A stretch of 54,543 nt of DNA from a bacterium (GTDB lineage Bacteria; JAJRZV01). The stretch lies in contig JAJRZV010000017.1 in NCBI GenBank assembly GCA_024275095.1, forward strand, positions 1 through 54,543, written 5' to 3'. A model generated the notes under the pieces. The model saw nothing but the letters and a program-made list of their open reading frames with translations. It was not told the origin of the DNA and did no database searches. Each line of letters opens with the position of its first letter. The stretch's first letter is position 1. Position numbers and translations under genes: made by a program. Of this stretch, positions 2,145 through 5,824 are shown one piece after another.

Positions 2145-2414
2145 CTATTCCTGAGAAGAGCTTTCGACTTTACCAGAAGTCAGAGCATTGTAGATAGAAG
2201 TAAACAAAGCTCCACCGATGGCTCCGTAGATAAAACCGTACACAAAAGCGATACAAATTCCTATGCCGCTCACTGAATAGCCTGGAAACACCACCGTAAG
2301 AGCTCCCAGCGTGGCTCCGCCTCCACGCGCAAGTGAAAAAATTGTTGCAACCGCCACAGCAATTGCACACACAATACCTGCCGCGATACTTCCTGCTTTT
2401 ACGTCAAGTTTCAA
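2145..2414 (-). CDS. small two-helix membrane protein, 'holin'-annotated family
   Basis: This 89-residue protein has two hydrophobic segments, about residues 8-30 (AAGIVCAIAVAVATIFSLA) and 45-78, with a Gly-rich turn and the pattern FVYGFIYGAIGGALFTSIYNAL. The start MKLDVKAG and the GFIxGxIGGxxFxxxYN ending resemble a widespread family of small chromosomal proteins that databases often label 'bacteriophage holin'. No phage gene is near, so I do not read it as prophage. It is the last gene of the GNA1162/CsgG/SPFH cluster, 16 bases after the SPFH gene. Function is unknown; an envelope role with its neighbours is inference. Confidence 0.7.
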   Translation of the reverse strand: MKLDVKAGSIAAGIVCAIAVAVATIFSLARGGGATLGALTVVFPGYSVSGIGICIAFVYGFIYGAIGGALFTSIYNALTSGKVESSSQE

Positions 2415-2430
2415 GATATCACCCCCTTTT

Positions 2431-3237
2431 TTATTTTTTATTTAGGGGAATAATAGGAAGCATATCCTGTCCAAAGGGTAAAATAATGACTGTATTGTTG
2501 GGCGAGTTCACAAGTTTCTCAAGAGTATCAATGTATTTCCATTGAAGATACTTTTGAGATAGTGACCCAGCAATAATGCGGTTGGCATCCGCAATGCCCC
2601 GGGCCTCGAGTTTCTTTCTATCCGCTTCCTGCTTCTCTTTTTTGAGAACAAACTCCATGCGCTCGGCTTCCTGCTGTGCCTGGATCTTCATTTCAATGGC
2701 CTGCACGACTTTTTGTGGAATTTCAATGTTTCTCACAAGCACTTCTTCCACATAAATATGCTGGGCACCAAGCTTGTCTTTGATCATTTTCTGAAGTTCA
2801 TCACCGAAAATCGTTCTTTTCTGATACAGGTCCGAGGCAGTGTACTCTGAAGCCACGTCTCTGGCGGCGGAACGAAGCGTGGGGGTAATAAGGCGATCAT
2901 CCCAGGAAGGACTGTAACGAACAATGGTTTCAGCGGCATATTGTGGGTCGAGTCTGTAAAGAATTGTCACATCTATTTTTACATTGAGCCCGTCTTTCGT
3001 AAGGGTTGAAATGGAATTCACACCCACAAAGTCCAGCTTTTTCACCCTCACGTCCACGGCACGTATGATCTCTACTCCGGGAATAAAGAAATGCAATCCG
3101 GCCTGCAGCTCTTCTGGCTGAACCTTACGAAACCGGCTCTTTACCCCGACAAAACCCGACTCTATAGTTGTACATGAAGCGAACCCCGCAACAATCAAAA
3201 AAGAAAGCACTCCGTATTTAATGGCTCGTGTGATCAC
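2431..3237 (-). CDS. SPFH/prohibitin-family lipoprotein
   Basis: The N-terminus has a basic stretch, a hydrophobic run and a lipobox ending FASC (Cys about 22), so the protein is probably a lipoprotein rather than TM-anchored, which is less usual for this family. The Band-7 domain follows: VKSRFRKVQPEELQAGLHFFIPG, IDVTILYRLDP and SAARDVASEYTASDLY are typical of prohibitins. A charged coiled coil (KIQAQQEAERMEFVLKKEKQ) and RGIADANRIIAGSLSQKYLQWKY match the C-terminal SPFH signature. Prohibitins form large membrane-bound rings and scaffold or protect membrane proteins. The start codon is GTG, 7 bases after the CsgG-like gene, with GGAGGAGG within that gene's end serving as SD. It is the third gene of a four-gene unit. 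Confidence 0.9.
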   Translation of the reverse strand: MITRAIKYGVLSFLIVAGFASCTTIESGFVGVKSRFRKVQPEELQAGLHFFIPGVEIIRAVDVRVKKLDFVGVNSISTLTKDGLNVKIDVTILYRLDPQYAAETIVRYSPSWDDRLITPTLRSAARDVASEYTASDLYQKRTIFGDELQKMIKDKLGAQHIYVEEVLVRNIEIPQKVVQAIEMKIQAQQEAERMEFVLKKEKQEADRKKLEARGIADANRIIAGSLSQKYLQWKYIDTLEKLVNSPNNTVIILPFGQDMLPIIPLNKK

Positions 3238-3244
3238 AGCTGGA

Positions 3245-4249
3245 TCATTCCTCCTCCTCAGGAGGTTCCAGTTTTACCACAGCGCCCTTTAAAGCCTTTC
3301 CGGAAAGGAGTCTTGCCTTGGCGTATTTATTGTCACCGTAAAATTTCACAACCTTCGCTTTTCCAATGTACTCTTCCTCGTATCCGATAATTTCACCCGT
3401 GTCAGGATCTTCAATGGGTTCTCCTTTGGCGTAGATATAAAGAACATCTCCCTTTTGCAGACCTTCATTCTCTCCAGCATTGAGATAAAGATAGATTTTC
3501 CCTGTGTTCTTCGAGCGTCTCACAGAAGCAACAGATGCTTTCCAAGGCAGCTCCCCCAGTTTCCGCACAAGCCTGTCAACCAGGTTACTGATGGCTGCTC
3601 TCAGGGCTTTGCCGGCAAGCGCGAGGTCAAAAGTCTGGGCACTTCCCACCCCCAGGAAAGAACCGCTGGAGGTCTGGGCCGTTCCAACTCCCCGGTCTGC
3701 AAAAAGGATCTTTCCTGTTTCCACATCTACCACCCGTATGTCCACCTCCGCTTCAGCCACCTGAGATTTGGATTGTGCAAGACCCAGAAAACTTCCGCCC
3801 TTGAGCTTTACGCCAAAATTTGTAACAGCTCCGGTGATAATGGCGTTTACACCCAGAAGACGCCCGATGCGGGCGGCTGTCCGGGGATTCACAAGGTCAG
3901 ACAACCCAAGCCTTTGCTCTTTAAGCAGTGCATTGAGTTTGTCACGCTCAATCACGGTAAATTTGCCTGATTTAACCAGCTCCGTAATAAGAATATCTGT
4001 CGCGTCAGATGCAAGCTGAAGTCGCCCCAGCTTTGATTTCATCTCGAAGTCCACCACCGCCACTCTTTTCTTCAACGCCCTGACTTTTGCACCTTTACCG
4101 GGAGCCGCTTCTTCCTCGCTGACCGCCTTCATTTTCTCCTTCGCTCCTTTTTCTACTGTCGTGGTGACTGCTGTACCGCAGGCACTGATAAAAATAACAC
4201 CTGCAACGGCAAAGAATATCCGGTAGACTTTTGGAGCCATAGCCCTCAT
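3245..4249 (-). CDS. CsgG/HfaB-like lipoprotein
   Basis: A lipobox (FISAC, Cys 24) ends the signal peptide. From about residue 60 the protein shows the CsgG fold: KKRVAVVDFEMKS, LVKSGKFTVIERDKLNALLKEQ, GRLLGVNAIITGAVTNFG and a VDIRVVDVETGKILFADRG strand. CsgG proteins form outer-membrane secretion pores for curli, or related peptidoglycan/holdfast anchors (HfaB). The C-terminal third (GKIYLYLNAGENEGLQKGDVLYIY, an OB/SH3-like strand set) is an extension seen in many CsgG-like lipoproteins that are not curli exporters. A strong SD (AAGGAGG) seven bases before the ATG at 4249 fixes the start. No curli subunit genes (csgA/B/E/F) are present, so curli export is unlikely. Confidence 0.9.
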   Translation of the reverse strand: MRAMAPKVYRIFFAVAGVIFISACGTAVTTTVEKGAKEKMKAVSEEEAAPGKGAKVRALKKRVAVVDFEMKSKLGRLQLASDATDILITELVKSGKFTVIERDKLNALLKEQRLGLSDLVNPRTAARIGRLLGVNAIITGAVTNFGVKLKGGSFLGLAQSKSQVAEAEVDIRVVDVETGKILFADRGVGTAQTSSGSFLGVGSAQTFDLALAGKALRAAISNLVDRLVRKLGELPWKASVASVRRSKNTGKIYLYLNAGENEGLQKGDVLYIYAKGEPIEDPDTGEIIGYEEEYIGKAKVVKFYGDNKYAKARLLSGKALKGAVVKLEPPEEEE

Positions 4250-4292
4250 CGTACCCCCTCCTTAAACTGGAATTTTCTCATGCCTCATAACC

Positions 4293-4922
4293 TCAATACG
4301 GAATGGTGCTTACCATAGTATTTATGATCTGAACGCAGTACTTGTAAAGAGGATGGCCGGTGATGGCCTGAGACACGGCGCTTTCGGCAATCTCGGCTGC
4401 CGCAGCTTTTAACATGTCAGCTGGCTTAAGTGCAATGGTCGTCTCTCCTGCCTCCCGTTCATCTTCCCAGAGTTTATCACCTGTACGGGCGTCGATAAGA
4501 TATACCGTGGCCTTTACAGCCTTTCGATTGTATATGCCAGTCACAACCGTTTGAGCTTTTTCCACAAGCCCCATGAAAATTCCGTCCACCTTGAGTGCTT
4601 TAGCAAGCCGTTCAAGTTCCACAAGTTTCAGCTGTTCTCCAAGGGTAATTTCAAACTCCTCTCTCAAAATCCTGTTTGTCTCTTCTATTGGCTGGACCAC
4701 AAATCCACGAGAAGGCAATCGCTGGGCCAGGAGTCTTCGAAGAATATTCGGGATTTGAATGTCATTTGTGAGATTTTCAAATGGTGCGATGGCCACAAAA
4801 TGAGGTTTTCTTGCTTCAAAATCCGGAACAATAAACTTGGGTTTCAAGCACGCTGCCAGAAAAGGCAACACACCTATTACAACCAACCACTTTATCCCGT
4901 GTCTCCTTTTCATCTCTTTCAC
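4293..4922 (-). CDS. GNA1162/DUF799-like lipoprotein
   Basis: A 209-residue lipoprotein (lipobox LAAC, Cys 25). The mature part (HFVAIAPFENLTNDIQIPN, RLLAQRLPSRGFVVQP, LAKALKVDGIFMGLVEK, VTVYLIDARTGDKLWED-like strands) matches the DUF799/GNA1162 family, whose members are outer-membrane-associated lipoproteins structurally related to the TolB N-domain and CsgG. In Neisseria and other proteobacteria GNA1162 travels with a CsgG-like and a DUF4810 lipoprotein. Here CsgG follows after 43 bases and no DUF4810 gene is present. It is the first gene of the cluster and lies behind a readable sigma70 promoter. Family assignment is by pattern memory, hence moderate confidence. Confidence 0.78.
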   Translation of the reverse strand: MKEMKRRHGIKWLVVIGVLPFLAACLKPKFIVPDFEARKPHFVAIAPFENLTNDIQIPNILRRLLAQRLPSRGFVVQPIEETNRILREEFEITLGEQLKLVELERLAKALKVDGIFMGLVEKAQTVVTGIYNRKAVKATVYLIDARTGDKLWEDEREAGETTIALKPADMLKAAAAEIAESAVSQAITGHPLYKYCVQIINTMVSTIPY

Positions 4923-4943
4923 CCCCGACCGGCTCTTCTGGAA

Positions 4944-4971
4944 AATATACCCAATTAAACCGCGGTTTCAA
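4944..4971 (-). promoter_or_regulatory. sigma70 promoter of the GNA1162-CsgG-SPFH operon, with palindrome
   Basis: Minus strand TTGAAA (4971-4966), a 16-bp spacer, then TATATT (4949-4944): five of six matches to each consensus box. The -10 ends 21 bases before the ATG at 4922, leaving room for a short leader. The spacer contains the perfect 12-bp palindrome AAACCGCGGTTT (4957-4968), overlapping the -35. This is well placed for a dimeric repressor, although a single 12-mer palindrome could occur by chance. Confidence 0.55.
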
Positions 4972-5005: not shown

Positions 5006-5824
5006 TTACCCGGAGGCAACCAGCGATTCTAAATTTCCCAACGGAATCTTCTCCACATGAGACAACTTTTTCCCAAGAAACAAACATCCCAAATCAGCAA
5101 ATCTCCGAGGGTCATCGGTGACGTAAAACCGTAGTTCTCGCGAATTTTTACCAGAACCAGCTTCTATAAACTCGTGCAGTTCTTCAGCTACTGCTTCCCC
5201 TGAATCAATGAGAAGCACTGAAGACCCCAGAAATTGCGATATGGTTTTTTTTAAAAGAGGATAATGGGTGCAACCCAGCACAAGCGCCTTTATCTTGTCT
5301 TTCAAAGATTTCAGGTAAAACTCCACGGTAGAGTAAGTAATCAAATGATCCACAAGGCCCTCCTCGGCCAGGGGTACGAACAAAGGGCAGGCCTGTTGGA
5401 TCACCTCCATGTGGGGAGCGAAGGATTTGATTTTTTCAGGATAACTGCCACTTTCCACTGTAGCACGTGTGCCAATAATCCCCACGGGACCCTCTTTCTC
5501 CTTCTTGAGAAGACTTCTGACACCGGGCTCTATCACCCCCATCACCGGCACTTTGAGCCGGTCGCGAAGATAGGTAATGGCAGCAGCAGAAGCCGAGTTG
5601 CATGCAACCACGATAAATCGGGCACCTTCCTGTTCGAGAAAACGGCAACCTTCCAGTGCAAAACGCCTGATCACTTCCGGGGATCGAATTCCGTAGGGCA
5701 CACGTGCTGTGTCACCGAAATAAAAAAAATCTACCCCGGGAAATGCTCTTAACAATTCCCGCAGCACCGTGAGCCCACCCACGCCGGAATCAAATACGCC
5801 TATGGGACCGGTATTAACCTTCAT
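5006..5824 (-). CDS. murI: glutamate racemase
   Basis: MurI interconverts L- and D-glutamate in the cytosol, supplying D-Glu for peptidoglycan. The 272-residue protein has all the signatures: GVFDSGVGGLTVL at the N-terminus (catalytic-site Asp/Ser), YFGDTARVPYG, the first catalytic Cys in VVACNSASA (Cys 75) and the second in LVLGCTHYPLL (Cys 185). Length is standard. It is the last gene of the glycan operon, 27 bases after the GT4 gene, linking it to envelope synthesis. The 83 bases after its stop hold the promoter of the next operon and no obvious terminator. Confidence 0.97.
   Translation of the reverse strand: MKVNTGPIGVFDSGVGGLTVLRELLRAFPGVDFFYFGDTARVPYGIRSPEVIRRFALEGCRFLEQEGARFIVVACNSASAAAITYLRDRLKVPVMGVIEPGVRSLLKKEKEGPVGIIGTRATVESGSYPEKIKSFAPHMEVIQQACPLFVPLAEEGLVDHLITYSTVEFYLKSLKDKIKALVLGCTHYPLLKKTISQFLGSSVLLIDSGEAVAEELHEFIEAGSGKNSRELRFYVTDDPRRFADLGCLFLGKKLSHVEKIPLGNLESLVASG

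Follow-up and report, generated by a model that had tools for sequence, protein, structure and literature searches.

Four closely packed genes on a bacterial contig raise the question of whether their products build one machine that spans the cell envelope, as the original prediction had it, or whether a known pair of lipoprotein genes has been joined by other genes in a single lineage. The stretch at issue, positions 1 to 54,543 of contig JAJRZV010000017.1 (assembly GCA_024275095.1, from a genome of 2.45 Mb), is referred to here as the window. The features of the locus, in the direction of transcription, are as follows.

4944 to 4971, minus strand: sigma-70-like promoter, TTGAAA-16 nt-TATATT (10 of 12 consensus positions, the best match of the region)
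4957 to 4968, no strand assigned: perfect 12-bp palindrome AAACCGCGGTTT, a possible operator
4293 to 4922, minus strand: first gene, GNA1162-like lipoprotein of 209 aa (PF05643; lipobox; adjacency to CsgG in many genomes)
3245 to 4249, minus strand: CsgG-family lipoprotein of 334 aa (PF03783; AF2 model; Foldseek)
2431 to 3237, minus strand: prohibitin-type SPFH protein of 268 aa, a probable lipoprotein (Band_7; PHROG 200; similarity to prohibitin 1)
2145 to 2414, minus strand: two-helix membrane protein of 89 aa with a TTG start and GGGGGTGA upstream (NF037947 below cut-off; alignment; AF2 model)
2109 to 2139, no strand assigned: GC-rich 9-bp stem with a 13-nt loop, downstream of the small-protein gene

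The open reading frames and profile scores bear out the four gene identities and their positions on the minus strand, the small membrane protein being the one that stays below its cut-off. Three of the four proteins exceed Pfam gathering scores, namely, the GNA1162-like protein (34.9 bits against PF05643, cut-off 25.9), the CsgG-family protein (118.9 bits against PF03783, cut-off 20.8), and the SPFH protein (128 bits against Band_7, cut-off 23.6). The same three carry lipobox-like N termini, with the motifs FLAAC, FISAC, and GFASC, respectively, the last of which supplies the predicted lipobox cysteine of the SPFH protein, Cys 22. Because the genes are tightly spaced on one strand (gaps of 43, 7, and 16 nt) and preceded by one good promoter, all four likely form one operon, in agreement with the proposal that a single promoter serves them. 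Within this operon, the apparent Shine-Dalgarno site of the SPFH gene falls in the 3' end of the CsgG gene; together with the 7-nt gap, this suggests that the two genes are translationally coupled.

The promoter was called by consensus match only, as the top-scoring of nine promoter-like sites in the region, where 4.3 are expected by shuffling. The palindrome foreseen at this promoter is indeed present, overlapping the last part of the -35 element as well as the spacer. By simple counting, the chance of a perfect palindrome in the gap of about 80 nt is about 0.02, and the sequence may serve as an operator. A reading of the palindrome as the mark of a regulon was dropped, given that the exact sequence occurs only once in the genome. 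On the other side of the operon, the stem after the last gene is followed by TTTTT on the plus strand (2109 to 2145), while the surrounding genes all lie on the minus strand; since no T-run follows on that strand, a role of the stem as terminator of the operon is doubtful. The upstream neighbor, a racemase-family gene on the same strand that is probably murI, ends at 5006. Downstream and again on the same strand, positions 777 to 1430 and 1427 to 2017 hold an ECF sigma factor gene and then the gene of an anti-sigma-like membrane protein, which carries a C-terminal CBM48/AMPK-type glycogen-binding domain. Proteins of the Omp85/BamA type are encoded in the genome, and the host cell is therefore very probably diderm, with an outer membrane.

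The partnership claimed for the GNA1162-like and CsgG-family proteins recurs in other genomes. Matches to the GNA1162-like protein were found in 61 of the 386 genomes compared (window's genome included), and the gene adjoins a CsgG gene, with no DUF4810 gene between or beside them, at loci L032, L033, L034, L129 to L134, and L136, an arrangement that spans at least six other families. GNA1162-CsgG is already known as a widespread lipoprotein pair. The order CsgG-DUF4810-GNA1162 was seen at L137 to L139 and L141. A phylogenetic tree unites the DUF4810-linked CsgG proteins in a single clade (support 99/98), from which the window's protein is excluded; its exact place is not settled by this tree, but its nearest rows by tree path belong to DUF4810-less GNA1162-CsgG pairs, where the best identity, 41%, is also found. 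DUF4810 (PF16068) had no match across the whole genome of the window, and GNA1162-CsgG pairs of this branch normally lack it. Moreover, the gene that follows CsgG differs by lineage, encoding a PEGA lipoprotein (L032), a phosphatidyltransferase-like protein (L132 and L133), or a 205-aa protein (L129 to L131). With DUF4810-less pairs ordinary in several lineages, and CsgG followed by different genes, nothing indicates that the SPFH protein has taken the place of DUF4810, as had been proposed.

The closest known arrangement is the Neisseria NMB1162/1163/1164-type cluster, which likewise has adjacent genes for GNA1162-like and CsgG-family lipoproteins, both above their Pfam cut-offs in the window; the window differs in lacking DUF4810, in placing GNA1162 first, and in its additional SPFH and small membrane genes. 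Neisseria NMB1163/NMB1164 homologues have been listed among outer-membrane vesicle lipoproteins (PMC10097807). Our literature search found no paper with the term DUF4810 and met GNA1162 and CsgG together only in the context of vaccine antigens. A scan of genome contigs with the CsgG-family protein returned distant CsgG-family loci only. Three further CsgG-family genes are present in the window's own genome (L039, G000:C12; L040, G000:C39; and L041, G000:C21). A CsgG-family lipoprotein that bears the annotation NMB1126/NMB1164 precursor is encoded in two phage records (H21 and H22, Acinetobacter phage MD-2021a); these phage-labeled contigs are possibly mislabeled chromosomal DNA.

The third protein belongs to a common prohibitin-type family: it resembles prohibitin 1 end to end, matches PHROG 200 "lipoprotein" (1.8e-50), and has relatives at E <= 1e-15 in 76 of the 386 genomes (window's genome included). 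The Band_7 domain and the full-length similarity to prohibitin 1 tie it to prohibitins, HflK, HflC, and PHROG 200, and exposure to the periplasm is expected as for HflK/C. In contrast to prohibitins and HflK/HflC, it carries a lipobox instead of a transmembrane anchor, and neither FtsH nor NfeD is encoded next to it. Identity with HflKC was rejected, as the equivalog scores are far below their cut-offs (35 versus 159.4 and 26.8 versus 134.4 bits), and so was an NfeD-SPFH pair, for want of an NfeD gene at this place. The lipobox is found in 10 of 28 aligned members, and the remaining rows have a hydrophobic N terminus, so that the type of anchor seems to switch within the family. The lipobox cysteine, on whose conservation the original prediction relied, is retained in the two closest relatives (51%, L148 and L149) but only in this minority of the aligned rows. 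In these two relatives, the SPFH lipoprotein gene directly follows a gene for a glycine-zipper/OmpA lipoprotein, at most 2 nt away (L148:1486-3020 and L149:1486-2999). The window's genome has another, distant SPFH gene at a different place (G000:C99). Distant SPFH relatives are carried by 257 phage records, and a scan of viral contigs with the SPFH protein found no relatives. SPFH genes stand in patchy and changing genomic contexts, both at the loci read here and in a published account (PMC13086221).

We then compared the four families across the 386 genomes, among which the window's genome is the sole member of its phylum and all others are related to it at the domain level only. All four families lie together only in the window's genome. 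Not one of 29 other SPFH loci read has a GNA1162, CsgG, or small-protein gene within 1.5 kb of the SPFH gene, and the remaining SPFH genomes were compared by the coordinates of their GNA1162 and small-protein matches. Twelve genomes have both GNA1162 and SPFH, always on different contigs or more than 300 kb apart; the small protein co-occurs with GNA1162 in six genomes and with SPFH in one, adjacent in none of them. A conserved four-part machine is therefore not borne out, the families being apart in every other genome examined. Such scattering, which the original prediction had counted against itself, holds among distant bacteria, in a sample without another genome of the window's phylum. The four-gene set is most likely a lineage-specific operon, and what is new here is an unusual four-gene combination, not a proven new machine.

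How might such an operon work? The reading that we consider rather probable is that of a lipoprotein pair to which a prohibitin in the periplasm and a small protein of the inner membrane have been joined, probably for envelope maintenance. The core of this operon of a diderm lineage would be the widespread GNA1162-CsgG pair. Like the related folds FlgT, PelC, and CsgG, this pair most likely assembles into a ring-like structure at the outer membrane, on its periplasmic face. To this pair, the lineage would have added an SPFH protein of the prohibitin type, anchored by a lipid, and a membrane protein of two helices, all four being produced together. The SPFH protein, presumably lipidated at its cysteine, may form a cage or scaffold in the periplasm, similar to that of prohibitins, close to the GNA1162-CsgG pair, with the small protein as its inner-membrane contact; the sorting of the lipoproteins to the outer membrane, the contacts among the four proteins, and their oligomeric state are inferred. 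Maintenance of the envelope is the likeliest use. In favor of this reading, the SPFH gene of the closest relatives also has an outer-envelope partner beside it, the gene of the OmpA/glycine-zipper lipoprotein.

Alternatively, the shared operon could mean co-regulation alone, in that a complete GNA1162-CsgG unit and an independent unit of SPFH and small protein share a promoter, as a chance or regulatory neighborhood. The unrelated genes that follow CsgG in other lineages and the shifting surroundings of SPFH genes point in this direction. However, the suggested translational coupling of CsgG and SPFH argues for a closer tie, and a lipoprotein nature common to three genes is more than random, so that we regard mere neighborhood as a credible but doubtful alternative.

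The view of the original prediction, a single physical trans-envelope machine for secretion or tethering, would make the CsgG-family protein an outer-membrane ring and GNA1162 an adaptor, with the SPFH protein as a cage spanning the periplasm and the small protein as an anchor in the inner membrane. The genes are contiguous and probably co-transcribed, and their products suit successive layers of the envelope. In the AF2 model of the CsgG-family protein (pLDDT 80.5), a domain of the CsgG/LpoB type is followed by a FlgT_C-like one at the C terminus, and the best Foldseek matches, near full length (287 to 293 columns), are FlgT ring subunits of the flagellar LPHT ring (TMq 0.55 to 0.58), followed by pre-pore CsgG, GNA1162, PelC, and LpoB, which match the N-terminal domain. 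Both domains thus resemble the FlgT/TsaP/CsgG/PelC/LpoB fold group, the C-terminal one being like FlgT_C and like that of the LysM-domain protein 6ve2_O, which we take to be TsaP. FlgT forms a ring without a pore, and so does PelC. The hairpin regions of the window's protein, counted by eye on the alignment, measure 35 and 39 residues; they are longer than the first of LpoB (about 21) and approach those of Escherichia coli CsgG (41 and 49), which favors the machine, yet they are polar (model strands 136-155, 158-175, and 181-198). A membrane pore is possible, and a pore-less ring, as in FlgT and PelC, is at least as likely. The curli channel proper was rejected as an identity, because the protein scores 23.2 bits against the 505 demanded by the CsgG equivalog PRK15184 (NCBIfam); neither a curli gene nor PelB nor a flagellar ring gene was found among the neighbors examined. 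Considering also that the combination is absent from every other genome of the 386, we judge a physical machine of this kind unlikely. A single envelope-spanning assembly of the four proteins, in which a lipid-anchored prohibitin cage links an outer-membrane GNA1162-CsgG ring to the small inner-membrane protein, strikes us as distinctly improbable.

The small protein itself reaches 39.5 bits against NF037947 (holin_4), below the cut-off of 70, and has no Pfam match. It shares with this family the two-helix plan, the MKL start, and a conserved GY...G...YN motif, but the helix 2 position that is acidic in most members is a tyrosine here, and the protein comes without phage context. The AF2 model (pLDDT 83.6) predicts long helices at residues 5-30 and 50-84 with a shorter one between them, and a fold search gave no significant match (best E 2.6). 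A phage origin was rejected, as none of 50,697 phage records matched the protein, and none of 72,556 plasmid records did either. The holin_4 family occurs in 34 of the 386 genomes (window's genome included), and elsewhere its members are found in diverse chromosomal surroundings, housekeeping or envelope, either free-standing or fused to a flavoprotein. At two loci, the domain is the C terminus of a 603-aa flavin amine-oxidase-type protein (L093:1-1812 and L094:1420-3231), followed by a free second copy (L093:1828-2133 and L094:1099-1404) and then a glycosyltransferase-like gene; at a third, a free copy (L096:1450-1779) comes directly after a gene similar to the flavin amine-oxidase-type gene. 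In three genomes of one family (L087, L089, and L091), the small two-helix gene is flanked on one side by a lipoprotein-like gene and on the other by a large gene whose product starts with MDNLTYYL. These contexts suggest that chromosomal members are misnamed by the "bacteriophage holin" title of NF037947, and the proposed host-encoded, holin-like membrane activity finds no support in the sub-cut-off match, the lack of phage and plasmid relatives, or the flavoprotein-fused and free-standing members. Despite the NCBIfam label and two hydrophobic helices, a true holin that acts with the SPFH protein, e.g., in programmed lysis or vesicle release, is hardly credible given the evidence above and the absence of an endolysin gene beside the small gene.

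Most work on SPFH proteins concerns the inner or plasma membrane, and we know of no prohibitin scaffold described on the outer-envelope side. The item worth keeping from this locus is that prohibitins with a lipobox recur in the company of outer-envelope lipoproteins in two lineages that are unrelated, next to CsgG/GNA1162 in the window and next to OmpA/glycine-zipper lipoproteins in L148 and L149. If these proteins are lipidated and sorted outward, prohibitin cages would be present at the outer side of the periplasmic space.
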